A stretch of DNA of 64,000 nt from Deltaproteobacteria bacterium (lineage in GTDB: Bacteria > Desulfobacterota > Desulfomonilia > Desulfomonilales > Desulfomonilaceae). Below the pieces are notes generated by a model. That model worked only from the letters and a program-made list of their open reading frames with translations, ran no database searches and had not been told where the DNA came from. How positions within the stretch are numbered: the stretch's first letter is position 1; each line of letters begins with the position of its first letter. The position numbers and the translations under genes are program-made. Location: the NCBI GenBank assembly GCA_016875095.1, contig VGSG01000008.1:1-64000 (forward strand), written 5' to 3'. Shown here piece after piece: positions 24,984 to 48,234 of this stretch.

Positions 24984-25241
24984 CGCGCAGTTTCTTCGCT
25001 TTGCGGACAAGCATAACCGAGTCACGCGGAAGGTGTCCAGGCCGATTTGGGTTTCGGAGAACCGCGGGCTCTTTCCCATTATATTGAACTGGACAAGCGC
25101 AGTTGCTAATTTTATAAAGCACTGTGGGAGTGTCCGGCAACGACTCGCGTTGTCTTTTGCGTCTAAACGCGTGCCCATTTGGCAAGAGACGATAGAGATT
25201 TGGTGACACGATCTCCGGCGATCGCAACCGTAGGAGGATTT

Positions 25242-25949
25242 GTGACCATAAAATTCCCCGGAGAAGCATTTGCCGAGCTGTCCACGCCTCTGCTCGCGGA
25301 CGCGTGCGTGCGATTGGATGTTCCTCTTCTCGTAGCCCCACAAGGGATTCGACCCCTCAAGGCAGGAACGAGCGTCGCAGGCCGGGCGCTTCCAGTCGTA
25401 CACTACGGCAGCGTGGACATCTTCCTGGAAGCTATGCATTCCGCTGAAGAAGGGGACGTGCTCGTCATCGACAACCAAGGCAGAACCGATGAAGGCTGCG
25501 TGGGAGATTTGACTGCGCTGGAAGCGGAGGCGTCGGGTTTGGCCGGGATCGTGGTATGGGGCTGCCACAGAGATAGTGCGGAACTCGCCGCCATTGGATT
25601 TCCCATCTTCAGCTACGGTGTGTATCCAGTCGGCCCCACTCGATTGGATCCAAGGGAACCCCATGCCCTGGAGCGCGCGTGTTTTGGGAATTCCCGGGTC
25701 GGGCGGGAACACTTTGTCTTCGCTGACGACGACGGCGTCCTGTTTGTTCCTCAGGCGCGCCTCGAAGAAGTCCTCTCGACGGCTCGCTCCATCCGGGAGA
25801 CGGAGCGGCGCCAGGCCACGGCGATCAGTGAGGGCCGGACACTTCGGGAACAGCTCCGATTCGCGGAATACATGGCCAACCGAATAGCCGATCCATCCTA
25901 TACCTTTCGTGCGCATTTGAGGAAGATCGGCGGAGCAATTGAAGAATAG
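25242..25949 (+). CDS. RraA-like / HMG aldolase family protein
   Basis: 235 residues from GTG 25242 with AGGAGG four bases upstream; a TTG further upstream is in frame but has no binding site. The family core is VLVIDNQGRTDEGCVGDLTA and GLAGIVVWGCHRDSAEL, where the conserved Gly-Asp and Arg-Asp bind metal and pyruvate in 4-hydroxy-4-methyl-2-oxoglutarate aldolases; related proteins inhibit RNase E (RraA). The C-terminal extension is charged and helical, longer than E. coli RraA (161 residues), favouring aldolase or oxaloacetate decarboxylase activity. The cytochrome gene follows 19 bases later. Confidence 0.85.
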   Translation: MTIKFPGEAFAELSTPLLADACVRLDVPLLVAPQGIRPLKAGTSVAGRALPVVHYGSVDIFLEAMHSAEEGDVLVIDNQGRTDEGCVGDLTALEAEASGLAGIVVWGCHRDSAELAAIGFPIFSYGVYPVGPTRLDPREPHALERACFGNSRVGREHFVFADDDGVLFVPQARLEEVLSTARSIRETERRQATAISEGRTLREQLRFAEYMANRIADPSYTFRAHLRKIGGAIEE

Positions 25950-25968
25950 AGGATCCTCAGGAGCGTTC

Positions 25969-30392: not shown

Positions 30393-32516
30393 TTGGAGAG
30401 CTCTCAAATTGGGGTGTGGGACCTCAATCTTCAAACATGGGAGGCGTTCTATGATGTGACATCGGGTGGGATGTTCGGCTATGCGCCGGATGACTACATT
30501 TGGACGGTGTCCGGGTGGGGTAGCCTTGTCCATCCGGACGATCTTCGTCCGATTAGAAAAGCGTTCAACGCGCACGTCAGAGGAGAGACCCCCGGTTACG
30601 AGTGCGAGCACCGGATACGCGCAAAGTCCGACGAGTGGCGTTGGAACCTTGCCAGAGGCAGGGTGGTGGAATTCGACCGGAACGGCGCTCCGCTGAGGAT
30701 GGTGGGAACCAACCAGGATATTACCGAGCGGAAACTCCTTGAAGAAGATCTCAGAGCCTTGCGGGCCGATTTCGGAGATGACTCGGAGAGTCGCGTGACC
30801 GCGCCCGAGGAAGCCGGTCTTGATTACAAAGGCCTTATGGAAAAGGTCAAAGCGCTGAGCGGCCGGCTTCGCGCCTCCTTCGCAAGATATCAATTATTAA
30901 TTGATAACCTTCGTGAAGGCATTTGTGTCGCCGAAGGCGGGTTCCTCCGGTTCGTGAATCCTTATGGCGCTCATATTATGGGGTATTCTCTTGATGAACT
31001 CATGTCACGACCTTTCATGGAATTCGTGCATCCCGAAGACCGCGACTTCGTCATAAAACGATACCTACTTCGATTGCAAGGGCAGCTCGAAGGTGGGGAC
31101 ACGAGCTTTCGGATCATACATGCTTCAGGAGAGACGAGGTGGCTCGAAGGCGCAACGGTGCGCGTGGCGTGGGAAGGTAAACCCGCAGTCTTGATGGTTG
31201 CCTCGGATGTCACGGAGCGTCGAGAAGCCGAGGAAGAGCTTCAAAGGTCGGAGCAGCTCCTGCGGCTTACGTTCGACACCATGGGCAGTGGACTGCTGAT
31301 CATAGGCCCCCATGGTGAGATCCTGATGGCGAATCTGTATGCGCGGCATTGTCTTGGACTTGATGACACCAGTATCGGCCGAACGCTCTTGGAAGTCCTT
31401 CAAGACGTGGGCCACTGGGAGGGTCTCAATCACCACGAAACCAAAGCCTCCACCACGATAACCTTGCGGAACGGAAAACGAAAGACCATCGGTTACAACT
31501 GCGCGAGTCTTGAAGCCGAGGGGTCTTATATGCTGCTGTTCAGGGACTTGTCGGCCCTCGCAGAGAGTGAGGAGCGGCGGCGAAGGGCGGAGCAATTGGC
31601 TCTCGTGGGCGAAACCGCGGCGAGATTGGCTCACGATATCAAGAATCCTCTGACAAGCGTTCTTTCCGGGCTTCATGCGCTGAGAAGTTCGAAGAATCTG
31701 ATCTCTGAGGACCGTTACATTGTCGAGTTGGTCCTCGATGAGGTGCGGTCGCTGAATGCGACCGTGAAACATCTCTTGGAGGGGACTCGCACGTCGAGTA
31801 TGACCGTAGCTCGGGTTGATGTGCGCGCTCTCTTGGCGGGGCGCCTTGAATTTCATAAGCTGATGGCGCAAAGCGCCGGAGTTCATATATCTCTCGCGGA
31901 GGGTCCGGAGGGTGTTTTCGTAACGGGAGACGACCAATCCCTCCGCCGAGTCCTCGACAATCTTGTCCAGAATGCTCTTGACGCCTGTGGGAGGGGCGAT
32001 TCCATTCGATTGGGCTGGCGGATCGTGCCGCAGCCCGAAAAGCATTTACTGGCCGGTGATTTCTCCGAAACAGTGGTTGGGATCTCTGTAGAAGATACAG
32101 GCCGGGGCCTCTCCGACTCCATTAGCAAGTCCGGCTTGTTTAGACCCTTCGTGACGACCAAGTCTTCCGGCAGCGGCCTCGGGCTTGCGGTGTCCCAGGA
32201 AATCGCCGAAATACACGGGGGATGGATACGGGTGGGTTCATCGCGGGACAAGGGGACTACCTTTGAAATGCTGTTGCCCGCAGGCGATCGACCCCGATGC
32301 TGGGAGAGCAGATGCGCGACAAAAGATTGTGGGCCTCAATCCGAGAATGGATGTTTGCGTTGCGAAGTCAAGATGTCCGGGTCTGACACCTTCTGTTGGG
32401 TTTTGAGGGGTCTTACTCACAGGGCGGAGACGGGCGTCTGGCCGGATAGATGCCTCAACTGTTTCGTATTCCGGCAATCGGTTTTCCTGGCGCCTGACAA
32501 GCCGCCAGGTGTCTGA
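30393..32516 (+). CDS. Cytoplasmic multi-PAS histidine kinase with Cys-rich tail
   Basis: 707 residues, TTG start; the gene lies between the receiver gene and the NtrC-type gene. Three PAS domains: about 5-120 (ending VGTNQDITERK), about 165-285 (ending VASDVTERREA) and about 290-395. The HisKA domain has His414 (ARLAHDIKNPLTS); the ATPase has LVQNALDAC (N box), VEDTGRGL and SGSGLGLAVSQEIAEIHGG. No transmembrane helix is seen. The last 75 residues carry nine cysteines, including CWE, CLRC, FCW and CLNC, in a pattern resembling two-CW-type cysteine-rich domains, possibly a metal or FeS site for redox sensing. The likely partner is the NtrC-type protein 15 bases downstream. Confidence 0.9.
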   Translation: MESSQIGVWDLNLQTWEAFYDVTSGGMFGYAPDDYIWTVSGWGSLVHPDDLRPIRKAFNAHVRGETPGYECEHRIRAKSDEWRWNLARGRVVEFDRNGAPLRMVGTNQDITERKLLEEDLRALRADFGDDSESRVTAPEEAGLDYKGLMEKVKALSGRLRASFARYQLLIDNLREGICVAEGGFLRFVNPYGAHIMGYSLDELMSRPFMEFVHPEDRDFVIKRYLLRLQGQLEGGDTSFRIIHASGETRWLEGATVRVAWEGKPAVLMVASDVTERREAEEELQRSEQLLRLTFDTMGSGLLIIGPHGEILMANLYARHCLGLDDTSIGRTLLEVLQDVGHWEGLNHHETKASTTITLRNGKRKTIGYNCASLEAEGSYMLLFRDLSALAESEERRRRAEQLALVGETAARLAHDIKNPLTSVLSGLHALRSSKNLISEDRYIVELVLDEVRSLNATVKHLLEGTRTSSMTVARVDVRALLAGRLEFHKLMAQSAGVHISLAEGPEGVFVTGDDQSLRRVLDNLVQNALDACGRGDSIRLGWRIVPQPEKHLLAGDFSETVVGISVEDTGRGLSDSISKSGLFRPFVTTKSSGSGLGLAVSQEIAEIHGGWIRVGSSRDKGTTFEMLLPAGDRPRCWESRCATKDCGPQSENGCLRCEVKMSGSDTFCWVLRGLTHRAETGVWPDRCLNCFVFRQSVFLAPDKPPGV

Positions 32517-32531
32517 CCGGAACGCAGGGCA

Positions 32532-33932
32532 ATGTTTGAGAGAATTCTTATCGTTGATGACGATGTCCAACTAGCGAAGAGTCTTGAGTTCTTGCTGAAA
32601 CGCGAGGGATATCATGCGTTAAGCGCTCACCACGGCGCCGAAGCGCGTAGGCTTGTCTCAAGCGCCTATCCCGACGTGATCCTCCTGGACCTGGGGCTTC
32701 CCGATGTAGACGGCATCACCCTCATGGGCGAATTGCGTCAGATCCATCAGGATGCCTGCTTTCTTATCGTCACGGCGAACACGGCCATAAAGACCGCCGT
32801 GGCGGCCATGCGCAACGGAGCGACCGATTACCTGACAAAGCCGTTCGAAGCCGAGGAACTCACCTTGGCAATAAGTCGGGCGATCCGGGACCGAATCAAG
32901 GACGAGGAAATAATCCGACTGCGAAAAGAAGCCAGGCCGTTACCTCGGCCTTTAGCGAATGCTACGGCAGCTTCCGGTCCTCCGTCACCATATCCCTCCA
33001 AGTCAATGCGCGGAGTTCTTGCTCAGGCGAAACAGGCCGCGGACCGGAACACCATCGTCCTGCTCCTGGGCGAAAGCGGGGCCGGAAAGGATTACGTGGC
33101 CAAGTTTATTCACGAATGCTCGCCCCGGGCCGGCGGACCCTTCTTTTCCATCAACTGTGCGGCCGTTTCTTCCGAACTTGCCGAATCGGAACTGTTCGGA
33201 CACGAGCCCGGCGCCTTTACCGGAGCGAGAGGGCGGAAGCGAGGCCTGCTGGAACTTGCCGATCAAGGCACGTTGCTGTTGAACGAGGTGGGAGACCTAC
33301 CGCCGCCCTTGCAAGCAAAACTGCTGACGTTCCTTGACACCAAGGAATTCACCCGCGTCGGAGGGCAGATCCAAGTCCTCTGCAAGGCGCGTATCATCGC
33401 CGCCACAAACAGAAATTTAGAGCGAGAGGTAGCCGGGGGCAGATTCAGGGCCGATCTTTACTATCGACTCAACGTGTTTTCGGTCACCGTCCCGCCACTG
33501 CGGGAAAGGGTTTTGGATATACCTCTTCTGGTTCGCGATATCGTACAGCAATTGGTGGATGAAATGGGGTTCCCCGAAGCCCCGCAAATCGACGGAGAGG
33601 CCATGGATTTACTCTGCAACTACCATTGGCCGGGGAACGTGAGGGAGCTTCGGAATGTGCTGGAACGAGCCTTGATTCTCTGCAGCGGGCAGCGAATAAC
33701 GCCCTCCTGTTTGACAATAGGAAGCGGCCCTCGGGAGGGCCCGGAATGGTCATTCACTGTAGGTTTCCCCAGCGGCCAAACGATTCACGAGGTAATTTCA
33801 GAGGCCAAAGGCTCTCTGATTGCCGAGGCCCTGCGTCGTTCGCGGAACAGCAAACAAGGAGCGGCCAAGCTCCTTGGCATTTCTCGCCACGCTCTTGCCC
33901 ATCAGATGAAGTTTCTCGCCATTAACGAGTGA
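32532..33932 (+). CDS. NtrC-family sigma-54-dependent response regulator
   Basis: 466 residues. Receiver domain with Asp53 (DVILLDLGLPD) and Lys near 103 (YLTKPFEAEE). AAA+ activator domain at about 155-385: Walker A GESGAGKDY near 180, the sigma-54 loop GAFTGA near 226, and LLLNEVGDLPP for Walker B. A Fis-type HTH ends the protein (KQGAAKLLGISRHALAHQMK). It should oligomerise on DNA and open sigma-54 promoters when phosphorylated. Directly downstream lie a perfect palindrome and a sigma-54 promoter candidate, which makes the following operon its likely target. Confidence 0.95.
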   Translation: MFERILIVDDDVQLAKSLEFLLKREGYHALSAHHGAEARRLVSSAYPDVILLDLGLPDVDGITLMGELRQIHQDACFLIVTANTAIKTAVAAMRNGATDYLTKPFEAEELTLAISRAIRDRIKDEEIIRLRKEARPLPRPLANATAASGPPSPYPSKSMRGVLAQAKQAADRNTIVLLLGESGAGKDYVAKFIHECSPRAGGPFFSINCAAVSSELAESELFGHEPGAFTGARGRKRGLLELADQGTLLLNEVGDLPPPLQAKLLTFLDTKEFTRVGGQIQVLCKARIIAATNRNLEREVAGGRFRADLYYRLNVFSVTVPPLRERVLDIPLLVRDIVQQLVDEMGFPEAPQIDGEAMDLLCNYHWPGNVRELRNVLERALILCSGQRITPSCLTIGSGPREGPEWSFTVGFPSGQTIHEVISEAKGSLIAEALRRSRNSKQGAAKLLGISRHALAHQMKFLAINE

Positions 33933-34020
33933 GGGGCACGCACCTTCCTCGTCCGCGCGAGTGATTTCCACGCATTGCGGCAATCGTAACTGCCGGTAAT
34001 TACAGGGTCACGACATTAGG

Positions 34021-34035
34021 GCGTGATAATCACGC
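34021..34035. promoter_or_regulatory. Perfect 15-base palindrome, possible upstream activator site
   Basis: GCGTGATAATCACGC, two seven-base arms around a central A. It lies 111 bases before the candidate sigma-54 promoter, a typical distance for an enhancer of an NtrC-type activator, whose gene ends 89 bases upstream. Binding is inference. Confidence 0.55.
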
Positions 34036-34146: not shown

Positions 34147-34162
34147 TGGCACAGAACGTGCT
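34147..34162 (+). promoter_or_regulatory. Sigma-54 (RpoN) promoter candidate
   Basis: TGGCACAGAACGTGCT matches TGGCAC-N5-TTGCW except for one base, with the GG and GC at the required ten-base spacing. The predicted start is near 34172. It points at the receiver/roadblock/MglA operon and leaves a long leader containing the GC-rich hairpins at 34256-34309. Confidence 0.6.
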
Positions 34163-34255: not shown

Positions 34256-34309
34256 CCCTCTCCCGCCAGGGGAGAGGGTTTCCGGCCCCCCTCCCTTGAC
34301 GGGAGGGGG
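34256..34309. repeat. Two tandem GC-rich hairpins, REP-like
   Basis: First stem CCCTCTCCC (34256-34264) with GGGAGAGGG (34270-34278) around five bases. Second stem of nine pairs, C-rich 34287-34295 with G-rich 34301-34309, around TTGAC. Each is perfect. The sequence style matches widespread bacterial intergenic REP-type repeats; only this copy was seen in the window. It may slow transcription from the sigma-54 promoter or protect the mRNA. The rest of 33933-34532 has no ORF with a start site. Confidence 0.55.
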
Positions 34310-34532
34310 AAGGGGGCGGGTGATAACGAGCTGTAATCAAAGAGGCCGATTCCTTATTTGAAGCGCTATAGCCCGTATCCCGCAATGCGTGCGTTAAGCC
34401 GGCGCCCAAAACCGCGGCTTACCAACCGAGAGAAAGGCGGGACGAGTCACCATAGAACTTCAGTTCAGAGGAACATCGTCTGTTGAGAGCGCAAGAATGA
34501 GGTTATTACCGGTGCAACAGGAAGTCGGCATT

Positions 34533-34745
34533 ATGCATGACAAAATCGAGTTACTTATGCAGAGAGCGCGCAATCAAGACCGACTCCTTGAACAGCTTTC
34601 CGCCCAACTTGACGAAATCAGGACCGGCAATAGGGACCTTTCAGAGTTGGCGAGAAAAGTGGGCGAGCTAACGCTCGCCGTCGATGGACTCAAGGATTGG
34701 GTTCGCACGAGCCACGACCCATTCGCGGGATTACCGGAGCGATAA
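34533..34745 (+). CDS. Small coiled-coil protein
   Basis: 70 residues from ATG 34533 (AGGAAG eight bases upstream); ATG 34497 in the same frame has a poorer site. The sequence is almost one amphipathic helix with heptad-like Leu/Ile spacing (LLEQLSAQLDEI and LARKVGELTLAVDGL), so it should dimerise as a coiled coil. No family recognised. It is the first gene after the sigma-54 promoter candidate and lies 86 bases before the receiver/HisKA-like gene, so it may be a small adaptor of the signalling row. Confidence 0.5.
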   Translation: MHDKIELLMQRARNQDRLLEQLSAQLDEIRTGNRDLSELARKVGELTLAVDGLKDWVRTSHDPFAGLPER

Positions 34746-34831
34746 TGCGACAGGACAAATGATGGTCGGGGCCGTGCTGCTCGGGATAGGCCATTCCGTC
34801 GAGCAGATCGGAGAATCGCTGGAGCAAGAGG

Positions 34832-35476
34832 ATGGAGCGCACCGAAAAAGAGATCACAAGGATCTTGTTCGTGGAGGACCACGCGTCGCTGGCTTATATC
34901 ATGTGCTCGAACCTGGAAATGATGATCCCAGGGATACAGGTATTGAGAGCCGACTCCTGTTGGATGGCTCGTGAAATCGCGCTGGAAACCGGTCCGGAAT
35001 TGATAATCACGGACGTAAGGTTGGCTGACGGTGACGGTTTAGAACTCCTGGAAGAATTGTCGGCAATGATTCCCGGTGTGCGGGCCATCGTAACGAGCGG
35101 CGCAGCCCCCAACAAGAACAAGCGCTCAACGGATTTTGCCTTCCTTCCCAAACCCTACGAACCGCAAGATCTGGTTGACCTGGTGAAAAGCAAACTCGGC
35201 TTGCGGCGAAACGACAAAACGGATGAAGGTCCAAGCGCCTCTTCACCGCCGCACAGCGAAACGCCTTTCAGATATGACCCCCATCATCTACGAAACCGAC
35301 TCGCCGCTCTCTTGGCCGGTCTTAGGGTCTTGCAAGTGGAGCTGACGGTCCAGGCGGACGACCCGCAAGCCGTCCTACGCATTGCGAATGAGCAGGCGCC
35401 AAGACTGATTGAAATCACAGGGGAAATCTCTCGAATGCTACGCGAGTCGGAACATCGCCGTCTGAGGTCGGAATGA
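34832..35476 (+). CDS. Response regulator with C-terminal HisKA-like helical domain
   Basis: 214 residues. Residues about 10-125 are a receiver: LFVEDHASLA, acceptor Asp in LIITDVRLADGDG, Ser in IVTSGAA and Lys in FLPKPYEPQDL. After a Ser/Pro linker, about 150-205 is a helical pair that reads like a HisKA dimerisation domain (HHLRNRLAALLAGLRVLQ), with His151 or His152 where a phospho-acceptor could sit, but no ATPase domain follows. It may act as a phosphotransfer or decoy protein. Its stop overlaps the next start (ATGA). Confidence 0.8.
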   Translation: MERTEKEITRILFVEDHASLAYIMCSNLEMMIPGIQVLRADSCWMAREIALETGPELIITDVRLADGDGLELLEELSAMIPGVRAIVTSGAAPNKNKRSTDFAFLPKPYEPQDLVDLVKSKLGLRRNDKTDEGPSASSPPHSETPFRYDPHHLRNRLAALLAGLRVLQVELTVQADDPQAVLRIANEQAPRLIEITGEISRMLRESEHRRLRSE

Positions 35477-36207
35477 GCGACTGCAAGGGAACGGTGCTGC
35501 TGGTTGATGACGACCCGGAGGTGACCTGGGGAGTCGGGCGTTACCTCACTCGCGTGGGGTTTGCCGTGCACACCTGCGGGGATGGGGCCGAAGCGATTTC
35601 ATTATTGGAAGCCGGAGCATTCGATTTCGTCGTTACCGACATCAAAATGCCCCGCATGAATGGCCTGGCTCTTGTGGATTGGATGCGCGAGCACCGGCCG
35701 AGCGCAAAGGTTGCGGTAATGACCGCCTTTGGGGGACCGTCGATCCGAGCGATGAGCATAAGCAAGGGAGCGATGCTCTACTTGGAAAAACCGGTGGACC
35801 CGGAGTTCCTTGCCGATGTGTTGACTTCCACCTCGGAAGAGAAAGCCTTCTCAGGTCGAATCGACCAAATCGACATTCTTGATTACGTGCAACTCATCAT
35901 GCTCACCGGCAAGAAACTCGTTGTGGAAGTGCATTCCGGACAGGGAACTCACGGCGAGCTGTTCGTTGACAACGGCGCCATCATCCATGCGATGTGCGGC
36001 GAACTCGAAGGTGAAGAAGCAGTCTACCGGTGCCTAAGCTTCGAAGGGGGCAGCTTCCTGAACACACCGTGGAGGGAACCGCAGAAGGTTTCGGTATACA
36101 GACCGGGCGATTTTCTGCTGATAGAAGCTGCCAGAAAACGGGACGAGAGGAGATGCGGACCGTCAGGAACGATTGAAGATCGTCTCAACGTGAAGGACGA
36201 CGGGTGA
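35473..36207 (+). CDS. Response regulator with PATAN/DUF4388 output domain
   Basis: 244 residues. Receiver at about 5-122 with LLVDDDPEV, acceptor Asp in FVVTDIKMPRMNG, Thr in AVMTAFG and Lys in YLEKPVDPEF. The output part (about 130-215) is DUF4388/PATAN: LDYVQLIMLTGKKLVVEV, GELFVDNGAIIHAMCG and EEAVYRCLSFEGGSF. PATAN domains occur with roadblock/GTPase signalling proteins and are thought to mediate protein contacts. It overlaps the preceding gene by four bases and likely carries the phospho-signal to the GTPase module. Confidence 0.87.
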   Translation: MSDCKGTVLLVDDDPEVTWGVGRYLTRVGFAVHTCGDGAEAISLLEAGAFDFVVTDIKMPRMNGLALVDWMREHRPSAKVAVMTAFGGPSIRAMSISKGAMLYLEKPVDPEFLADVLTSTSEEKAFSGRIDQIDILDYVQLIMLTGKKLVVEVHSGQGTHGELFVDNGAIIHAMCGELEGEEAVYRCLSFEGGSFLNTPWREPQKVSVYRPGDFLLIEAARKRDERRCGPSGTIEDRLNVKDDG

Positions 36208-36250
36208 TGGATAACCCGATTAAATTACTTGGTATTGGAGGATCTGTGGA

Positions 36251-36727
36251 ATGAATGAAGATGCGGCCCAAAACCCCGGCCCCGTAACTCATATTCTTTC
36301 CTCGTTGATCGAAAGATCGGGAGCATTAACCGCATTGTTGGTGAGTAAGGAAGGAATGGTTATCACCGAAGCGGGAGACACGTCATACCTGAACACCACC
36401 GCCATGGCCGCGCTTGTGGCGGGCATGTTTTCCGCAACGCGTGAAGTGGCCCGCATCGTGGGTGAGAAACATTTTTCCATACTGCTTCAGCAGGGCGAGA
36501 GTCGCCATATTCACATCAGTCTCATACACGATTCAAAGATGATGGTTCTCATCTTCGAGGATCATCAGCGCATCGGTTTGGTTCGTTACGAGGCCCGACG
36601 GGCCGGAGAAGAGCTGAACAGCATACTGATGCCCACACTCAAGCCATCGGAAGCCGAACAAATCAGCACACCTCAATTCAAAGAATATGCCTTGAATTTG
36701 ATCGACCGCATTTTTCAGGCCAAGTGA
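36251..36727 (+). CDS. Roadblock/LC7 domain protein (MglB-like)
   Basis: 158 residues. A roadblock fold covers about 10-125: ALTALLVSKEGMVITEAGD, MAALVAGMFSATREVA, and the hydrophobic strand KMMVLIFEDHQRIGLVRY. MglB-type roadblock dimers are GTPase-activating partners of MglA. The gene ends three bases into the GTG-ATG region of the MglA gene, so the pair is probably made together, as in Myxococcus mglBA. A Ser/Glu-rich C-terminal extension of about 30 residues is present. Confidence 0.88.
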   Translation: MNEDAAQNPGPVTHILSSLIERSGALTALLVSKEGMVITEAGDTSYLNTTAMAALVAGMFSATREVARIVGEKHFSILLQQGESRHIHISLIHDSKMMVLIFEDHQRIGLVRYEARRAGEELNSILMPTLKPSEAEQISTPQFKEYALNLIDRIFQAK

Positions 36728-36738
36728 AGGACGGGACG

Positions 36739-37320
36739 ATGCCGCACATCAATTATGAATCCAAAGAGCTGGCTTTCAAAATGGTCTACTACGGGCCGGG
36801 CTTGAGCGGCAAGACAACCAACCTGGTCTATATCCATAAGGCTCTGGAAGCCGGACGAAGGGGCGATATCATTACTTTGGACACGGAAGAGGAGAGGACT
36901 TTGTTCTTTGATTTCTTTCCGCTCGATCTGGGTCGGATCGGCGGCTACAACATCCGGCTGCACATGTACACCGTGCCGGGCCAGGTCTACTACGAGGCGA
37001 GTCGCCGGCTCATCCTTGACGGCGCGGACGGCATTGTCTTTGTCGCGGATTCCCAACAGGACAGACTCAACGAGAATGTCAACAGCTTTCGCATGTTGCA
37101 AGAGAACCTTGGCGATTACGGGGTCAACTGGAAAGAGTTTCCGCTCGTCCTTCAGTACAACAAGCGTGATCTGGCCGACATCCTGCCTCTGGGGACTCTG
37201 GAAGGTCAGCTCGGTTTGAACGGCATTCCGGTGTTGGAGGCCGTGGCCATCGCGGGGACGGGTGTGATGGAAACGATCCGTGTCGCCAGCCGCGAGGTCA
37301 TCGAACGGTTCCAGATGTGA
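36739..37320 (+). CDS. MglA-type small Ras-like GTPase
   Basis: 193 residues from ATG 36739; a GTG at 36724 overlaps the upstream stop and would add five residues. P-loop GPGLSGKTT (about 14-22 of the domain), switch region with EERTLFFDFFPLD, MglA-specific TVPGQVYYEASR, and base-binding NKRD. This is the bacterial MglA family (polarity switch for motility in Myxococcus), not Era or Obg. The presumed GAP is the roadblock protein just upstream; effectors may be the PATAN proteins. Expected location is cytoplasmic, possibly polar. Confidence 0.92.
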   Translation: MPHINYESKELAFKMVYYGPGLSGKTTNLVYIHKALEAGRRGDIITLDTEEERTLFFDFFPLDLGRIGGYNIRLHMYTVPGQVYYEASRRLILDGADGIVFVADSQQDRLNENVNSFRMLQENLGDYGVNWKEFPLVLQYNKRDLADILPLGTLEGQLGLNGIPVLEAVAIAGTGVMETIRVASREVIERFQM

Positions 37321-37345
37321 ACAAACCCAAGGTGGAGACCGAAGA

Positions 37346-38041
37346 ATGGCGCTCAAAGGAACGTTGGCGGATCTTGGGATTGTGGATCTTATCCAGTTTC
37401 CCCACGCGGGCCGCAAGACCGGACATCTGATGATTACGGGACCGGACGGGGACGCAAGGCTGTTCTACGAGAACGGCGCCCTGGTGCACGCAAGTCTGAA
37501 TGATATTCACGGCATGGACGCCCTTGTGCGAATCGTGGACTGGGGCGAGGGCTCCTTCGAGTTCATGCCCGATCTTCAATCTCAAGAACGCACGATTGAA
37601 ATCGACCTCCATCGCGCGGTCATGCAAGCGCTCAAGCTTCACGACGAACTGAAAATGGAAGAAGAAAAGAGGAAATCCGGAAAAACGGCAGGTGAAAGCA
37701 TGCAGGACGAAAGCCTTCGCGCCAAGCTTGAGGAATTCGTTGCCGCAAACGATTTTGCGATGCACGCGGGAGTTCTTTCTCCTGAAGGAACGGTCAAAGC
37801 TTCCGCGGACGGGCCCGATGGATCTCCGGACAAGATCGATCGGCTCAGAGAAGCGCTTCATGCGTTCGTGCAGGCCTATCCGCGCGGCGGCTTGAGTCGC
37901 ATCCTCCTGCAGGACGAACTGGGTGTTGTGGCGCTCGTGATGCTGCCGGACGGCGGATCTTTGATCGTGGTTGCCGCCAAGGAAGCGTCACTGGGAACTG
38001 TTTCCGTGGGCGTAGGCAGATTAGCCCTGGGAATCGAATGA
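37346..38041 (+). CDS. PATAN/DUF4388 - roadblock fusion protein
   Basis: 231 residues from ATG 37346 (GGTGGAG eight bases upstream). About 1-100 is a DUF4388 domain: GTLADLGIVDLIQFPHAGRK, ARLFYENGALVHA and ALVRIVDWGEGSFEF. A charged helix follows (DELKMEEEKRKSG). About 125-231 resembles a roadblock domain (FAMHAGVLSPEGTVKA; GVVALVMLPDGGSLIVVAAK). It joins in one chain the two interaction modules found in the neighbouring genes and may bridge the receiver-PATAN protein and MglA. Its stop overlaps the start of the DnaA-like gene (ATGA). Confidence 0.85.
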   Translation: MALKGTLADLGIVDLIQFPHAGRKTGHLMITGPDGDARLFYENGALVHASLNDIHGMDALVRIVDWGEGSFEFMPDLQSQERTIEIDLHRAVMQALKLHDELKMEEEKRKSGKTAGESMQDESLRAKLEEFVAANDFAMHAGVLSPEGTVKASADGPDGSPDKIDRLREALHAFVQAYPRGGLSRILLQDELGVVALVMLPDGGSLIVVAAKEASLGTVSVGVGRLALGIE

Positions 38042-39207
38042 TGTGGCCGGCAATGGCAGACGAACCCAAAACAAAGGGTGGCCGCGGACTCCCGGACTTT
38101 CTGCGGGTCAGTGTGCTCAGAGGAGTTCTCGACGAGCGTACGGCAGAGCGCGTGGAGCTTTACCGCCGAACCAGAGGGCTCGGATTCTTCGAATCCCAGT
38201 CCGCGTTTCTCAACGACCCGCCCGATCCGGACCTTACGTTTGATAACTTCGTCGTGTGCAAAGGCAATTCTTTTGCACTTGAACTGGCCCATACCGTGGT
38301 TACGAAATCTTCGTCCCGATCACCCTACAACCCCCTCTACATTTACGGAGACATCGGGCTGGGGAAAACCCATTTGCTTTCCGCCATCGCAAATGCGGCG
38401 GAGGACAAGAGAGTCTTGTTGCTCAATGTTTCCGACTTTGAGACGGAAGTGGAAAGGGCCAATAGACTGTGCAAAAGGGCGGAGCTAAGGGACTGGCTTT
38501 ATTCCGCGGAAATCCTTCTCTTGGACGATATTCAACTCTGCGAAAGCCGCGAGGATGTGCAGCGAGATCTCTTCGCAGTTCTCAACTACATGATGCGCAC
38601 GCGGCGGTGGGTGGTGATCACCTCCGATGTTCCCCCCACACGCCTGGCAGGTGTGGAGTCACGGCTTCTGTCACGGCTCGGTGCCGGAGTCATCGTAAGT
38701 CTGCATATGGGAGACCGGATCGAGCGGCGCGCTTTTGTCGAGTCATTCCTCGATGAGCGTCCCATGCCCGAAGAAGTCATTGATTATCTGGCCGAGAACG
38801 TCAGCGAAAATGTGCGCCGCCTCAAAGCTGCGGTGACACAGTTGCTCATACTCAATGAGGCGAACGCGGGGCCCTTGACCCTCGACGCGGCCAGGGAATT
38901 CCTGGCGCCCCAGGACGCGCCGGGCCGTGCAGGCGGCATTCCCGTCCCAGATCCCGGGGCGCCGACGTCCGGGTATCATCAAGAGCCGAAACTTCCGCAG
39001 ACGGTAGTAAGTCGTTTCAAGGAGATGCTCGATGAAGCGGAGAGCGAAGATGAGCAGGCGCTCGCTCTACAGATCGCCTTGGGAGAAAGAATACGCCAAC
39101 TCCGAAAGGAGGAAGGAACCGAAGAGGCCGTTGAGAAACTGGAACAGGCGCTGAACCTACTCAGGCAAGGCAGACGAGAGGAGGCAATACGATGCATAAG
39201 TACCTGA
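38038..39207 (+). CDS. DnaA-like AAA+ ATPase without DnaA DNA-binding domain
   Basis: 389 residues. After about 60 divergent residues (GLPDFLRVSVLRGVLDE), TFDNFVVCKGNSFA opens a DnaA-type AAA+ core: YNPLYIYGDIGLGKTHLL (Walker A 104-111), LLLDDIQ (Walker B 160-166), TSDVPP (sensor I, 195-200), arginine-finger candidate Arg213 and ENVRRLKAAVTQLL (sensor II, 257-270). The domain IV helix-turn-helix that binds DnaA boxes is absent; instead a charged coiled coil ends the protein (about 325-385). It overlaps the PATAN-roadblock gene, so its partners are probably signalling proteins rather than oriC. A role like Hda, acting on replication, cannot be excluded. Confidence 0.88.
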   Translation: MMWPAMADEPKTKGGRGLPDFLRVSVLRGVLDERTAERVELYRRTRGLGFFESQSAFLNDPPDPDLTFDNFVVCKGNSFALELAHTVVTKSSSRSPYNPLYIYGDIGLGKTHLLSAIANAAEDKRVLLLNVSDFETEVERANRLCKRAELRDWLYSAEILLLDDIQLCESREDVQRDLFAVLNYMMRTRRWVVITSDVPPTRLAGVESRLLSRLGAGVIVSLHMGDRIERRAFVESFLDERPMPEEVIDYLAENVSENVRRLKAAVTQLLILNEANAGPLTLDAAREFLAPQDAPGRAGGIPVPDPGAPTSGYHQEPKLPQTVVSRFKEMLDEAESEDEQALALQIALGERIRQLRKEEGTEEAVEKLEQALNLLRQGRREEAIRCIST

Positions 39208-39452
39208 TCACCCATTCAGGCCCGGGACCGCCTCGGAACGCGAGTCGCAGGTGTCGGTTGACGATCGTGATTTCATCAAGCTAGGTCGGGCGAATGAACA
39301 GCAGAGACGCTGTCGCTGGCGAGATTCAAATTTCAGTCAGCAAACTTCCTGGGGATTCTGTCGCTGCGCCGATGCGGCGGGCGGGCATCCCGGCAGGACA
39401 TGATGGCGACTCTCGCAGCGCAACAAGACCGTAACAGCAAAAGGAGTGACAA

Positions 39453-39917
39453 ATGGCAACAGACAGAATCGACACAAGAGCGGTGCAGGGGGTCCTCTAC
39501 GGGATCTACAAAGCGCTCCACGGCGTTGTAGGGGAAAACTCGGCGGCGGTAATGCGCAGAGCCGCGCCGGATATCCTCGACATGCTGGGCAAGCTGGGAG
39601 TGGATTTCTCCTGTGTGGACGACGTGAACAAGCTGTCCGCGAAGCTCGGAGAAACCATGGTGCAAGCCGGCATGTGCGAGAACATGGCCTTCACGCTCAA
39701 TGGAAGCGACCTGACTGCGGACATCACCCAGTGCTCCTTCTATCCGCTCACCATGAAGCTGAAAGAGGAGGGGATACCGCCTTTCGGGTGCCCGTTCGCC
39801 GCCTTGACCATTGCAATTGCGGAGAAAAACCTGGGGAAACGGGCTCGACTGAAGTTTTTGGAGCCGGTCGGCAAGCCTGGTGACACCCGACTGATCGTTG
39901 AACTTACGGATAAATAG
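39453..39917 (+). CDS. Four-cysteine protein associated with roadblock signalling
   Basis: 154 residues from ATG 39453, with AAGGAG seven bases upstream. Mixed alpha/beta, no signal peptide. Four single cysteines are spread through the protein: DFSCVDD (54), AGMCENM (75), TQCSFYP (93) and GCPFAALT (112). The layout (N-terminal helix, then strands with a Cys-Pro motif) loosely recalls the MetOD1 or V4R-type ligand-binding domains, but this is a weak match. It stands 42 bases upstream of a roadblock gene and may be the sensor or effector of that protein. Redox or metal binding is a guess. Confidence 0.6.
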   Translation: MATDRIDTRAVQGVLYGIYKALHGVVGENSAAVMRRAAPDILDMLGKLGVDFSCVDDVNKLSAKLGETMVQAGMCENMAFTLNGSDLTADITQCSFYPLTMKLKEEGIPPFGCPFAALTIAIAEKNLGKRARLKFLEPVGKPGDTRLIVELTDK

Positions 39918-39959
39918 GCGCCGCATCGCGCCGCCTAATGAACGTCAAGGAGGCACAAT

Positions 39960-40316
39960 ATGCCGAGCGTAAAGCAGAAGCTGAGCGAGTTGCTCAAGGT
40001 AGACGGGGTCAACACTGCGGTCGTGGTGGGTCGTGACGGCTTCGTCATCGACGGCTTGACCAACGGCGCCGCAATGGATGTGGAAGCCATCGGCGCCGTA
40101 ATATCAACCGGCGTGGGCACCGCCGAGGTAATGGGTCGAGAACTCAAGGTCGGCGCCATGAGCCAGGGGATGATGGAATACAAGGACGGCATCATCCTCA
40201 TGAGCTTCCTTGGGAGAGAAGCCATACTGGCCTGCGTGGCAGAGGCCAACGCGAACCTGGGCAACGTGCGTTACCAGATAAAGAAGTTCTCCCCCGAGAT
40301 CCAAGCTACAATCTAG
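39960..40316 (+). CDS. Roadblock/LC7 domain protein (single domain)
   Basis: 118 residues, AAGGAGG seven bases before the ATG. The roadblock fold fills the whole protein: LKVDGVNTAVVVGRDGFVID, IGAVISTGVGTAEVMG, and YKDGIILMSFLGREAILACV. It is closer in size to archaeal-type and MglB core domains than the longer roadblock protein of the MglA pair. It could dimerise or pair with the PATAN-roadblock protein. Followed by a UUCG hairpin that probably ends the transcript. Confidence 0.9.
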   Translation: MPSVKQKLSELLKVDGVNTAVVVGRDGFVIDGLTNGAAMDVEAIGAVISTGVGTAEVMGRELKVGAMSQGMMEYKDGIILMSFLGREAILACVAEANANLGNVRYQIKKFSPEIQATI

Positions 40317-40376
40317 ACCGAACATTCGTAACGGTGTGGGAAGCTTGGATGTTCCGAGGCTTTCGCTGAGTGGCCG

Positions 40377-40396
40377 GGGGGAGATTCGTCTCCCCC
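40377..40396 (+). terminator. Stable TTCG-loop hairpin after the roadblock gene
   Basis: GGGGGAGA-TTCG-TCTCCCCC: a perfect eight-base stem with the very stable TTCG tetraloop, 60 bases after the roadblock stop. No T-run follows, so it may be a transcript 3'-end stabiliser rather than a full intrinsic terminator. Confidence 0.5.
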
Positions 40397-40436
40397 TCAT
40401 CTCTGGTAGTGCGCCCATCGCCCGGTGTCGGTCCCA

Positions 40437-40464
40437 CCGGTGAACACGATCTTGTTCACTCCGG
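40437..40464. promoter_or_regulatory. Inverted repeat ahead of the ankyrin gene
   Basis: GTGAACA (40440-40446), six bases, TGTTCAC (40453-40459); the outer CCGG bases on both sides extend the symmetry with one extra base. It ends 17-20 bases before the ankyrin start and looks like a dimer-bound operator, or a leader hairpin near the start site. Confidence 0.45.
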
Positions 40465-40480
40465 GAATCGTTAAGGATCA

Positions 40481-41260
40481 GTGGTGGCTCTCAAGCTGTT
40501 AGAACTGGCGGAGTCGGGTGAGGTTGATGGACTTCTCAAGCTGATCCACGGCGGCTTGAGTCCGGACCTGCGGGACGGATACGGACGAACCGCCCTCATG
40601 TTGGCGGCGAGAGAGGGACACGAGCATGTGGTGAGAGCGCTTCTTCAGGCAGGCGCTCATGTGGGCGCCGCGGACGAAGAGGGTGACACCGTCCTCATGA
40701 GGGCGGCCATGGAGGGCAGGAAAGCTGTGGTTAGGCTTCTCCTGAGGGCTCGCCCCGACACGGAGGCTCGAGATAGATACGGCTTCACCGCGTTGATTCG
40801 AGCTTCCATGAATGGACATACGGAAGTTATGGAACTGCTCCTGGCATCAGGAGCGGCAGTTGATGCGAGTGACCGCAACGGGAGAACTCCCCTGATCTGG
40901 GCCGCGCTCCGGGATCATCTGGGCGCCGTTCAACTGCTCGTCGAGAAAGGGGCTTTCGTGGACGCGAGGGGCGAAAGAAACAGCACCGCGCTCATGGAGG
41001 CGGCGTTCAGAGGACACGCGGAGGTGGTAGATCTATTGCTCGCTCGCGGGGCGGACATCGACGCGGTCGACACAGGCGGTTTCACTGCTCTTGCCTTGGC
41101 CTTGAGAAGACGCCACCCGGCTACGGCAAAACTGTTGCTTGCACATGGGGCGGAGACAAATACCGTGGATCACTTCGGTCGTACGCCTTTGATGTGGGCT
41201 CGCTCAGCCGGCATGAACGAGGTTGTTGACACGCTGCTGGCCGCGGCGCCGACACGGTAG
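40481..41260 (+). CDS. Ankyrin-repeat protein
   Basis: 259 residues; starts at GTG 40481 or at the next GTG, 40484, which is better spaced from AAGGA. About seven 33-residue ankyrin repeats fill the protein, each with the G-TAL-A-G or G-TPL-A pattern (GRTALMLAAREGHEHVVRALL; RTPLIWAALRDHLGAVQLL; STALMEAAFRGHAEVVDLL). No signal peptide, so a cytoplasmic binding scaffold is likely. It closes the signalling block, but a hairpin and operator-like repeat separate it from the roadblock gene, so it may be regulated separately. Confidence 0.9.
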   Translation: MVALKLLELAESGEVDGLLKLIHGGLSPDLRDGYGRTALMLAAREGHEHVVRALLQAGAHVGAADEEGDTVLMRAAMEGRKAVVRLLLRARPDTEARDRYGFTALIRASMNGHTEVMELLLASGAAVDASDRNGRTPLIWAALRDHLGAVQLLVEKGAFVDARGERNSTALMEAAFRGHAEVVDLLLARGADIDAVDTGGFTALALALRRRHPATAKLLLAHGAETNTVDHFGRTPLMWARSAGMNEVVDTLLAAAPTR

Positions 41261-43115: not shown

Positions 43116-46100
43116 CTAAGCCAGTGTTCCAACTTCGGGCAACGTATCCTGTTCCTTGATGTAACGGTACAGGGATTGGCGTGATATTCCAAGCAGTTCA
43201 GCCGCTACCGTCCTGTTGCCCGCGGACCGGCGTAGGGCCTCGACACACAGACTGCGCGTCACTTGGTCAATGATATCCGGCATGTTGTTCGCCTCGGGAA
43301 ATAAGACTTCGTGTGACCACTCGCGCGGCCCGGTGGCTAGCGACGGGATTTCTATTTCCAGTTTGGCTCCTCTCGAGAGCATCACCGCTCGCTCGAGAAC
43401 GTTGCGCAATTCTCGGACATTTCCCGGCCAACCGTACGAAGCAAGCTTCTCCATGTCTTGCGACCCTATAGCGGGCACCTGAGTCAGGCGCATATCGGTT
43501 GCAAGGTCGAGGAGGATCTCCTCCACAATGACGGGGAGGTCTTCGAGCCGCTCTCGGAGCGCAGGAACTCGCACAGTGTAAACATTGAGTCTGTAATAGA
43601 GCGCCTCGAGAAATCGGCCCTGCTCCACTTCGGCGCGCAGGTCCCTATGTGTTGCGGCAATGAGGCGCGCATGTACTCGGATATCCTTTTCACCCCCCAC
43701 CCTGGTAAAGGAGCGCGTGTCCAAGAAGGTGAGAAGCTTGGACTGAAGGTTGAGAGGAAGCTCGCCGACCTCGTTGAGCAACAGAGTGCCTCCCTCGGCC
43801 AGCTCCAAGAGACCTCGTTTCTTGGCGATGGCGCCGGTGAACGCCCCTCGTTCGTGGCCGAACAACTCAGATTCGGCCAGCTCCCGAGGAATGGCCGCGC
43901 AGTTTACGGAGAAAAACGGGCCGTCCGCACGCTTGGATTTGCTGTGAATCCACCTTGCCATATAGTCTTTACCGGTTCCGCTTTCACCGAGGAGCAGAAC
44001 GATGCCGTCCGTTTCCGCCGCCTGCCGTCCCCGCTCCAGGGTCGCTATCATGCTCGGGGACAAATATTCCCGCTGTGTAAATGTCCGCACCGGCTGGACG
44101 CCCTTGCGACCGGTAATGTTTCGAGAGAACTTGCACACGCCGACTACCGCTCCCGCGCTGTCTCTCAGCGGAGTCCGAATATCGTGAAAAGTCAGGTTCA
44201 TGCCACGCACCGGCCTGGTGTGTTCATCTTCGACGGTTTCGCCTGCCAAAACTCTCAGGTCTCCTTCGAGTATGTGGCTTGCCGCTTCCGGGCCGAAAAA
44301 ATCCTCCGACCGTTTTCCGATAATCTCGGGCGCGGGCAGTCCGAACAACGTTTCTACCGCAGGGTTTACGTGGGTGTATCGCAAATCGAGATCTTTGAGG
44401 AAGATACAGTCTCGCGCAACCTCGAAGATCGTGCGGAAGCGTTCTTCACTTGTTCGCAAAGCCTCTTCGGCCTCCCTCCGTTCGGTGATGTCGCGGCCCA
44501 GAGAGAGCACGGCTCGCTCGCCCTTGAATGTTGTCGGGAGCGCGACGGATTCCAGGTAGCCTACCGAGCCGTCCGCGCGTAATAACTGCACTTCCGTAAA
44601 ATCCGATACGACTCCGCTGCGCTCCGCTTCCTGGATTCTCTTTGAAACAACTTCACGAAATTCAGGATGGATGAAGTCCAGAAGAGGCAGGCCCATCAGT
44701 TTGTCGGTATTCTCAACCCGAAAAAATCTTGCCGCTGCCGCGTTACCGAAAAGGATGCCGCCGCGGTGCACAATCATTGGGTCGGGTGAGATATCAAACA
44801 GCTCACGATAACGGCGCTCACTCTCGAGCAGGGCTTCCTGGGCCCGTTTCCTCTCTGTCACGTCCTGAACAATGCCCTCGGTTGAGACCAGGTCCCCATG
44901 TTCGTTCAGGATGGGACGCGCGTGGAGAGAAGCCCATATGGGTCTGCCGTCCTTACGTCGTAATTCCACTTCAAAGCCATGAAGCACCTGGCCTTTACGG
45001 ATGAGACGAATGAATTCCTCGCGCTGACCTGAGTGCAGGTAGATGCCGTCACCCATCTCCTTCCCGGCTCGAAGAAGTTCCTCCGGCGAGTCAAAACCAA
45101 GAATGTGGGCTGAGGCCGGATTGGCATGCACCAGGTGGCCGCGCGCATCGGTTTGAAAAATGCCGTCGACGGCATGCTCAAATATGCCTCTATACTTCTC
45201 TTCGCTCAGCCTGAGCGTTTCTTCCGCGCGCTTGCGAACGGTTATATCCCGGACGATCCCGATTGTGTACCAGATCCCTTTCATGTTGACGACGGACGCG
45301 GACAATTCTATGGGGAAGCGACTCCCGTCGCTTCTGGAAGCTATGAACTCGGCCGTGTTTCCGTCACGTTCCTCTTCGACGCCGCGCATGTAAGAAGAGT
45401 TGCGCTGAGGTTGTTCAGCTTGAGCCGTTTCGTAGGAATTGGAGAGCTCAAGCCCTTTCAACTGGAGGAAATCGGCTGGTTGCTGGCCGAGCAGGACACG
45501 GACATTGTGTCCAACCGGATCGTAATCCAGCTCCAGGATCTTCACTAAAGCCGTATTGGATCTGCGCGTAATGCCATATGAATCGATTACCAACAAACCA
45601 TCCGCAAGGTTATCGCTGATTGCGGAAACATAGGTCAACGTTTCCTGGAGTTCCTGGGTAGCTTCAGAAACCTCTCGCTCCAGCGTTTCCATACGGCTCT
45701 CAATTTCGGACGCCATGTTGGTCATGGTCCTCGCCAGGACGCCAACCTCATCCCGTGACCGTATGTCCACCACCGCGCTAAATTCTCTGTTGGCAACCTT
45801 GTTCGCGTAATGGGTGAGCTCTATGAGGGGGCGGGACATCTTGTTCGTGAGCACATAAGCGATGCCTACGCTTAGCAGGAAGATCATGAACGTGACCGCG
45901 TGAAGCTTTACGATCGTCCACCACATGTAAGACATCACGCCGTCCAGATCCATGCCCACGTGAACATGCCCGGCCACCCCCGAGAGTATGGGCGATGAAA
46001 TGTCGAGATAGTTTCCTTCGCCTTTGAGGCGAACATTAGTGACGATAACCTCGTCCGTGTTTTCCCTGGGCTGCTCAACCACCTTGCGCAATTCGTACGG

Positions 46101-46406
46101 CACGCTGGGCGCAAACGTGTGGGAGAGAAATTCGCCGTCTTTGTTGACCACCAGGACATAGGAAAGCCCCTTAGTCTCCCTTAGTTGATCGACGATGGAC
46201 TGAATTGTGGACGCATCCCTGTTGAGGATTATTTCCATGCTGGAGTGGGCGATGTTATTGGCTATGGCGATCGCTTTACTCTTGTACTCGTCTATGATTC
46301 TGTCATAGAGTATCCAGCCAGCGACTGCGGATATGATTGTTGCAACCACCCCGAACAAGAGGGTCATCATGATCAAAGTTTTCTTAAATAATTTTGACAT
46401 CGTCAC
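43116..46406 (-). CDS. Membrane-anchored multi-PAS sigma-54 activator
   Basis: 1096 residues. Transmembrane helices at about 10-33 and 168-190 bracket a periplasmic sensor of about 130 residues; a HAMP domain follows ([19 protein letters not shown]). Four PAS domains fill about 265-770 (ends [46 protein letters not shown]). The AAA+ activator has Walker [10 protein letters not shown] near 805 and GAFTGA near 854, then a Fis-type HTH ([20 protein letters not shown]) at the end. No kinase or receiver domain: signal and transcription output are in one chain. Coupled (ATGA overlap) to the binding-protein gene upstream. Confidence 0.93.
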
Positions 46407-47662
46407 TTCTCCAGAGGCTTCGGATGCGGGATCGGCACGAAGCGACCCTGATCTACGGTGGTGAGAAAGACCGCGTCCAATCCTTGATGCCTGTCCGCGT
46501 CGAAGTTGACGGGCACGTTTATGCCAAGATCGAAACCCTTTATTGCCTCTACGGTCGCCTTGATGTTACGAGGGCGCAGATCCGGCCCCAGTCTCTCCAG
46601 AATCGCTACGAGCAACTTCGCGTTGAGAAAACCTTCCAGACTCACAGGGCTGTGTTTGTGCGGCTCGTAATCTTGCTGTATCAAACTCTTGGGGGGCATC
46701 ACATCGTATTTTGCCATCAATTCCCGGTACTGAGCCACCGCGGGCAGTTCGGTTGTCTCGCAACTCGGCACCACCTGTGAATTGATGAGGTTGGACGTGT
46801 AATCCTTACCCGTGCGCTCGCCGGTATTGATGAGGAGTTTGAGCATGTTTTCGCTGTCCACAAATGACACATTGGCTATCGGCACATTGAGACCGGCGTC
46901 GCGAGAGTCACGTATGAACGCGGCGCAAGCTTCATAAGCTCCTATAGATATTATCGAATCTGGGCTTGACTGCCTGATTACTTTCACCTGTGATTTCATG
47001 CTGGTCTCGTATGTGGTCCCCCGGTAGTACGTGGCCTCTCCCACCATGCGTGCGCCGTGCTTGGCAACGCTCTTTTGGACCGCTTCCCAACCGCTTCGAC
47101 CGTAAGCGTCGATCTGGTAAAAAACCCCGATGCGGTTGCGTCCTATGGAGGCCAGATAGGCGACTAATGCGTCTATTTCCTGGTGATAGGAAGCTCTCAA
47201 GTTAAAAACGTACTCACCATACGGCCGCTCTCTCTGCGGTTGGGCCCCGGTAAACGGAAAGAAAAGCAAGACCTCTCGCCAGCCACTATAAATTTTCAAC
47301 AGAGGGAGCATTCGCGTGACCGTGGGGGTGCCAACGTAGTCAAAGAGGAGAAATATGTCATCCTCTTCCACCAACCGAATGGTGTTTCGGATGGTAGGAA
47401 CGGGGTTGTATCCATCATCGTAGGCGATGAGGCTAATTTTGTGGCCGAAAACCCCCCCTTGCTCGTTGATGTGGGAAAAATAGGCCATACTTCCACGATA
47501 AAGTTCTATTCCCAGGCCCCGGGTAGGCCCTGTAAACGCCGCGGACATTCCGATCCTGATCTCTCTAGCCCAACCCGAACCTGAACAGATTCCGAGGCTT
47601 GCAAGACAGATCGATACCACGAAGAGGCAAAAGGTCACCGAGTTACGTCGGGTCTTTACCAT
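46403..47662 (-). CDS. ABC-type periplasmic ligand-binding protein (LivK/Peripla_BP_6 family)
   Basis: 419 residues from ATG 47662 (GGAGG seven bases upstream). Signal peptide ends about residue 33 (SGWA). The mature chain is the two-lobe LivJ/LivK fold: [55 protein letters not shown]-type hinge segments and a C-terminal lobe. No permease or ATPase genes are present. Its stop overlaps the start of the membrane sigma-54 activator, so it likely delivers a ligand signal to that protein instead of feeding a transporter. The ligand is unknown; amino acids, amides and aromatic acids are common. Confidence 0.9.
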
Positions 47663-48234
47663 CACATTGCCTCCATCGACCAAGATGGCCAAGGTGTCAA
47701 TTTTCGGGGCAGCGGCTGCGCGCAACGGTTGACGGAACGTCGATAGGAGCGATGCTGAGCCCGCTTCGCTGGTCACTACAGAAACATGATTTTTCGCGCA
47801 GCTCTCGATTTGTACGTCTTTCGTATCAGTTGTGGAAGAGACGAGCAGACGTGTAACATAGGCGGACAGAGAAATCAAGGAGAGTTTGTGTTGCAGACGA
47901 GCTTCTCATCTTCACGCGCCTTCACCACCGTTCCCAGGTTCCTTCTTAGTTCCGGGGAGGCATTCAACGCTGTCCTGCGAAGGTTTCTCCACCAATCCCA
48001 ATGCTCAACGCGCCGTCGAAGAAGGTTGGAGCAAGCCTCCGCGCCGGCATCTGGAGGACCAAAACTGTCCGAACTTGAGACACTGCGCAAAGGTTGCAGC
48101 GGACAGCTCAACATCCGCGTGGACGGAATCCGGCGAAAATAGCTAAGGTTGTCGGGTCGCCAACTGATGATATACGCAGGCTTGCATATGGCCGGCGGGC
48201 AAATTGGTAAGGAGCCATCATCCGCAATGAGGAC
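47663..48234. other. Upstream region of the binding-protein operon
   Basis: 572 bases with open frames on both strands (47786-48142 forward; 47875-48114 reverse) that lack start signals and look non-coding. No sigma-54 motif with correct spacing was found for the minus-strand operon, and no hairpin of note. The promoter of the sensory pair should lie in the 150 bases above 47662. Confidence 0.45.

Follow-up and report, generated by a model that had tools for sequence, protein, structure and literature searches.

A conserved operon joining MglA, roadblock and DnaA-like AAA+ genes in Desulfobacterota and Myxococcota

The Myxococcus xanthus MglA/MglB/RomR/RomX/RomY/MglC module combines an MglA with intact catalytic motifs, MglB-like and further roadblock proteins, and receiver-domain regulators. 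PATAN genes are already known near MglA genes, and in Group 1 and 5 MglA neighbourhoods (Wuichet and Sogaard-Andersen 2014; Makarova 2006) MglA has PATAN and MglB-type genes as neighbours; according to the accessible text of PMC4316618 these neighbourhoods are varied, with PATAN an occasional partner. The actinobacterial conservons (CvnA-D) carry a histidine kinase, a roadblock protein and an MglA-family GTPase in a single operon. Here, we describe an operon with features of all three, located at 34832-41260 in a 64,000-nucleotide stretch (the window) of contig C8 from a Deltaproteobacteria bacterium (assembly G000; 4.7 Mb, 202 contigs). We consider it probable that this is a self-contained signalling operon, in which an NtrC-switched MglA/roadblock GTPase module is coupled to a DnaA-derived AAA+ effector or remodeller.

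The operon comprises nine genes on the forward strand. The first encodes a receiver (Pfam Response_reg) with a tail resembling a dimerisation and histidine phosphotransfer domain but without the kinase ATPase domain (34832..35476). It is followed by a receiver-PATAN protein (Response_reg and DUF4388; 35473..36207), which is conserved across loci, roadblock 1 (Robl_LC7; 36251..36727), an MglA Ras-like GTPase (36739..37320), a protein composed of PATAN (DUF4388), a long helix and a roadblock-like fold (37346..38041), and a DnaA-like AAA+ ATPase with a helical C-terminal tail (Bac_DnaA; 38038..39207, starting at 38038 or 38053). A protein with three conserved cysteines (39453..39917), roadblock 2 (Robl_LC7, 1.8e-11; 39960..40316) and an ankyrin-repeat protein identified with Pfam (40481..41260) complete the set. 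Every gene named in the first-pass annotation was found in its place, with support from Pfam/NCBIfam, MglA structure matches and, for the roadblock portion of the PATAN fusion, AlphaFold2/Foldseek analysis, and the ATGA start/stop overlaps it reported at 35473 (receiver-PATAN) and 38038 (DnaA-like) are real in the sequence. An 82-residue open reading frame at 34497 was excluded from the system, its counterpart being absent from the relatives' loci.

The system was found at 14 loci in 13 genomes: the window genome, a Desulfomonile metagenome-assembled genome (MAG; G012) with two copies (DesA and DesB), and 11 Myxococcota genomes. Both Desulfomonile copies have the identical gene order, kinase and NtrC genes included, and one of them reaches a contig edge ahead of the ankyrin gene. 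Most of the operon genes also occur in order in a Myxococcales bacterium MAG (L065, JAJZQG010000022.1). The core order, common to Desulfobacterota and Myxococcota, is receiver-phosphotransfer, receiver-PATAN, roadblock 1, MglA, PATAN-roadblock and DnaA-like. The PATAN-roadblock gene lies immediately 5' of the DnaA-like gene at all 14 loci, and at several of them the two genes overlap by ATGA; MglA lies immediately 5' of PATAN-roadblock at 12 of 13 informative loci, the exception (G482) being rearranged, and roadblock 1 and MglA are neighbours in 13 of 13. In many loci, though not in every one, the genes for the Cys protein, roadblock 2 and the ankyrin protein come after the DnaA-like gene; roadblock 2 is near it in most, and the ankyrin gene recurs in DesA, G723, G826 and G830 (contig edge). 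Since the gene order is conserved across 14 loci of 13 genomes in two phyla, a chance neighbourhood was rejected, and the earlier claim that these genes form one system gains support. The refuting condition set in the first-pass annotation, a gene order confined to this genome, was examined and does not hold, as the Desulfomonile MAG and the Myxococcota loci demonstrate.

Among 345 Desulfobacterota genomes searched, the window genome was the sole carrier; the Desulfomonile MAG came from a separate search for relatives. Profile searches of 379 Myxococcota genomes yielded four carriers (G420, G482, G542 and G723), and the further carriers belong to the class of G723 (G816, G824, G826, G827, G830 and G831) or the order of G420 (G904). 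On these counts, the system is rare and patchy, yet held together across wide distances. Seven weak Desulfobacterota matches (E ~1e-46) cover the AAA+ region only and were therefore taken as ordinary DnaA and set aside. A plasmid-borne family was rejected, as the plasmid matches listed were dnaA over ~60% of the query and 0 of 55 covered 80%; a role in anti-phage defence was likewise rejected, PADLOC giving ankyrin matches only. At three Myxococcota loci (L076:340-2329, L074:752-2519 and L108:11489-12328), a ParA-like gene lies close to the cassette, and in two of these a further PATAN protein is encoded beside it.

The DnaA-like protein matched Pfam Bac_DnaA at 1.9e-36 (126 bits). It scored 193 bits against the DnaA model TIGR00362 (cut-off 344) and 89.8 bits against the Hda equivalog TIGR03420 (cut-off 194.8), which places its AAA+ core, as judged by sequence, closer to DnaA than to Hda. 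The family profile matched Thermotoga maritima DnaA (2z4r) at 2.4e-47, and in genome G420 the score was 606 bits for the cassette protein against 124 bits for the ordinary DnaA. In a comparison of the 14 family members with 29 true DnaA sequences, all 14 had the Walker A Gly/Lys and the Walker B Asp-Asp, and 12 had the sensor II Arg. Two positions of the initiator-specific motif, which correspond to contacts with single-stranded DNA in the Aquifex aeolicus and Escherichia coli DnaA structures, differ sharply: the Lys is found in 93% of true DnaA sequences versus one of 14 family members, and the Thr in 100% versus none. DnaA domain IV is absent, Pfam matching nothing past the AAA+ domain, and so is domain I. 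All 14 members have in common a helical C-terminal block, approximately FKEML..AE..EEQ.LALQIA....R...LR; the idea that this tail is a decayed domain IV was rejected after hhalign comparison with true DnaA C-termini (probability 0.4%). Because domain IV and the single-stranded DNA contact residues are missing, the protein appears unlikely to load helicase at DNA. The first-pass reading of a switch that loads or remodels an AAA+ machine may be correct, and the gene combination suggests that a protein derived from a replication initiator has been re-used in cell signalling.

Alternatively, the DnaA-like protein could act on replication by binding DnaA as Hda does, with the module tuning initiation or coupling polarity to the cell cycle. 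The AAA+ core nearest DnaA (193 bits, with 90 bits for Hda) is consistent with such a role, as are the ParA-like neighbours in three Myxococcota loci and the DnaA interface residues retained in the seven members first aligned, window protein included, all of which have box VII Arg208 and the sensor II Arg. We nevertheless regard it as unlikely: no QLxLF-like clamp-binding motif was seen by eye at the N-terminus, the box VII Arg is lost in four of 14 members, and the genome already encodes a separate DnaA (contig C20) and an Hda-like protein (contig C79), with roles assigned from size and match.

The window MglA matched solved MglA chains over nearly its full length (T. thermophilus, 3e-65; M. 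xanthus, 4e-58) and falls below the Pfam cut-offs. With its P-loop GPGLSGKTT, intrinsic-Arg motif ERTLFFD, G3 TVPGQ and G4 NKRD, it is a Group 1-like MglA whose catalytic motifs are intact; among 13 relatives, five gave no match to the.VPGQ pattern. Structures and motifs thus agree with the MglA assignment made earlier; its start position has to be moved, most likely from GTG 36724 to ATG 36739. Two further MglA genes, each adjoining a roadblock gene, occur in the same genome on contigs C45 (~7767-8762) and C53 (~25064-25986). Roadblock 1, a putative GTPase-activating protein (GAP) of MglA, matched the MglB model NF052242 at 1.4e-16, under that model's cut-off. The C-terminal half of the PATAN fusion had no Pfam match, and profile comparison alone was weak (E = 0.0015, probability 17%). 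Its AlphaFold2 model matched roadblock/MglB structures (Foldseek E = 1.9e-7), all 50 listed matches being of the roadblock family, and as modelled this half has a roadblock fold.

These genes might instead constitute an ordinary MglA motility or polarity module, whose AAA+ protein would serve type IV pili or gliding as a localisation factor (compare SgmX, or SofG on PilB). Such a reading accords with the mostly myxococcal carriers, with the PATAN genes near Group 1 and 5 MglA genes (accessible text of PMC4316618), and with the two PATAN proteins listed among candidates in the M. xanthus pilus network in the accessible part of PMC11580455. We consider it improbable, given that no pilus or gliding gene was noticed in the loci inspected and that the module is rare even in Myxococcota (4/379 genomes). 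Motility systems, by contrast, are common in that phylum.

No Pfam or other family model matched the Cys protein. Cys94 and Cys113 are present in all nine relatives, Cys75 in eight and Cys54 in six, so that of the four-Cys protein described at first the gene stands, with three broadly conserved cysteines (75, 94 and 113) and the fourth missing from three relatives. An AlphaFold2 model built from four sequences (predicted local distance difference test score, pLDDT, 68) has the element order of V4R/Bet3, namely two-helix, two-strand, two-helix, two-strand. Foldseek matches of this low-confidence model included YslB, mouse Bet3 (TM ~0.55), Asgard TRAPPC3, H-NOX and the MopR/PoxR V4R domains, with a best E of 9e-4; a V4R/Bet3-TRAPPC3 fold is therefore probable on the basis of the model. 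Roadblock genes also adjoin its more distant relatives in G229 and G292; the G229 gene sits next to genes for MglA, a PATAN protein and two roadblocks, and no DnaA-like gene was seen there. The Cys protein therefore belongs to a wider MglA/roadblock setting. In both genomes (L066:9790-12689 and L067:7350-10397), the V4R-like gene is followed by genes that by eye resemble an amidoligase and a class-II glutamine amidotransferase, and a free-standing two-CW protein (NF045718) adjoins the G229 cluster.

The tail of the first gene product contains an H-x3-N box resembling the phosphorylated helix of histidine kinases. This box is conserved in 11 of 12 relatives, in keeping with the HisKA-like tail originally noted, and 11 of 12 likewise have the receiver Asp. 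G420 carries two copies of the gene, the first having the Asp without the H-box and the second the H-box without the Asp, which suggests that both parts are functional. Three genomes in which no NtrC gene was found (G816, G824 and G831) have a hybrid kinase and a second receiver-PATAN protein 3' of the DnaA-like gene. Any phosphorelay into the GTPase would presumably run via the receiver-phosphotransfer and receiver-PATAN proteins.

Upstream of the operon, on the same strand, lie genes for an AtoS-like sensor histidine kinase (30393..32516; PAS domains, HisKA and HATPase_c in Pfam) and an NtrC-type response regulator (32532..33932; receiver, sigma-54 AAA+ domain with GAFTGA, and Fis-type helix-turn-helix HTH_8). 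At its C-terminus the kinase has a Cys-rich CW...C..C tail, which also occurs in both Desulfomonile kinases and might sense metal or redox state. A matrix scan placed a forward-strand sigma-54 -24/-12 promoter-like site, TGGCACAGAACGTGCT, at 34147..34162, the second-best site of the whole window. DesA and DesB have an even better-scoring site at the same offset (~213-215 nt) past the NtrC stop, in intergenic DNA that is otherwise poorly alignable. An NtrC orthologue is present in eight of 13 informative loci (window, DesA, DesB, G420, G482, G723, G830 and G826). An upstream sigma-54 site within the top 2% for its own DNA accompanies it in 8/8 (G420 being weakest), as against 1/5 of the NtrC-less loci (G827 only); the hypergeometric p of ~0.007 (5/715) refers to loci and scanned stretches of our own choosing. 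Because of this split, the kinase/NtrC pair most likely controls transcription of the operon. Both genes of the input proposed in the first-pass annotation are confirmed by Pfam, and transcription control is favoured over the direct role suggested there. Phosphate transfer from kinase and NtrC into the GTPase module, with transcription control secondary, is the least probable alternative: the conserved Asp and His of the receiver-phosphotransfer protein and the loci with a hybrid kinase and second receiver-PATAN protein would fit it, but the NtrC protein has sigma-54 activator and HTH domains and its gene co-occurs with a matching promoter-like site.

A short box, TCACGACATTA / TCACGATATTG / TAACGACATTA, is common to three Desulfobacterota loci (34005-34030 in the window, ~130 nt 5' of the -24/-12 site) and may be an NtrC binding site. 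Between the promoter-like site and the operon, a palindromic repeat, CCCTCTCCC-GCCA-GGGGAGAGGG (34256..34278), looks like an element of the repetitive extragenic palindromic (REP) or miniature inverted-repeat transposable element (MITE) type. It has 58 dispersed copies in the genome versus none for the reversed control pattern, some of them spaced ~117 nt apart; in the corresponding intergenic DNA of DesA and DesB no copy was seen.

In the proposed NtrC-switched GTPase operon with a DnaA-derived effector, the sensor kinase and its NtrC-type partner would turn on expression via the sigma-54 promoter, and roadblock 1 would act as the MglB-type GAP of MglA. The receiver-phosphotransfer and receiver-PATAN proteins may control which nucleotide MglA carries or where it is located, by analogy with RomR in Myxococcus. 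The PATAN-roadblock protein would link the GTPase switch to the DnaA-derived ATPase, which may assemble in an ATP-dependent manner on a roadblock/MglA platform and serve as effector or remodeller of protein partners, not DNA. The V4R/Bet3-like Cys protein could be a ligand- or metal-sensing partner. The sequences themselves show which genes are present and in what order, how the families are related, which residues are conserved and that the promoter-like site accompanies the NtrC gene; protein contacts, signalling direction and cell-level output are what we infer here. More specifically, and only tentatively, we suggest that a DnaA-derived AAA+ filament or ring, having left DNA replication to act on proteins, assembles under the direct control of a Ras-like GTPase; this would be a previously undescribed kind of GTPase-controlled AAA+ machine in bacteria, with a TRAPPC3/V4R-like subunit encoded in its operon.

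Several observations weigh against this interpretation. Only 10/14 DnaA-like proteins have box VII Arg208 and only 9/14 the sensor I Asp, so DnaA-type assembly may not extend to every member. No neighbouring gene accompanies the module at every locus and so points to its output, and GAP, guanine nucleotide exchange factor and scaffold roles are not allotted among the two roadblocks and the fusion. The sigma-54 sites depend on a hand-written weight matrix. In favour of the interpretation, the DnaA-like protein shows correlated pairwise distances with PATAN-roadblock (r = 0.90), receiver-PATAN (r = 0.88), roadblock 1 (r = 0.83) and MglA (r = 0.77), though this could be explained by shared descent alone, from which co-evolution is not separable.

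Elsewhere in the window, a large Cache-HAMP-PAS sigma-54 activator (43116-46406, reverse strand) adjoins a periplasmic binding protein gene (46403-47878, reverse strand), and a multihaem cytochrome fused to HEAT/TPR repeats is encoded at 25939-28356.

Taken together, the operon represents a new, rare and conserved variant of MglA/roadblock systems. The first-pass annotation could not name its combination of parts, and the literature searched, which left most subscription literature aside, likewise held no description of an MglA/MglB module joined to a DnaA-type AAA+ protein. Unlike the M. xanthus polarity module, it brings PATAN, a V4R/Bet3-like protein, a DnaA-derived ATPase and sigma-54/NtrC control together in one operon. 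It differs from the Group 1 and 5 neighbourhoods, as far as their accessible description goes, in its fixed gene order and its DnaA-like ATPase; the fixed PATAN-roadblock pairing offers a direct testable partner and may help to explain PATAN domain function. In contrast to conservons, its MglA has NKxD rather than the Group 2 NxFD, the DnaA-like and PATAN parts are extra, the order differs, and Pfam found no DUF742/CvnC among the operon proteins. With DnaA and Hda it shares the DnaA-type AAA+ core, but the cassette protein lacks domains I and IV and the single-stranded DNA contact positions, and has its own helical tail and other gene company; if our interpretation is true, a replication initiator fold stripped of DNA binding has been re-used inside a GTPase signalling machine. 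Finally, single Asgard archaea also have sets comprising a small GTPase, a roadblock and a TRAPPC3/V4R-like fold. According to the accessible text of PMC10933270, small GTPase genes of MK-D1 are generally not in one operon with RB, longin or TRAPPC3 genes, whereas here small GTPase, roadblock and probable TRAPPC3/V4R-like genes share an operon. Finding several roadblocks and a probable TRAPPC3/V4R-like protein alongside a small GTPase in bacteria bears on the origin of such sets outside eukaryotes.

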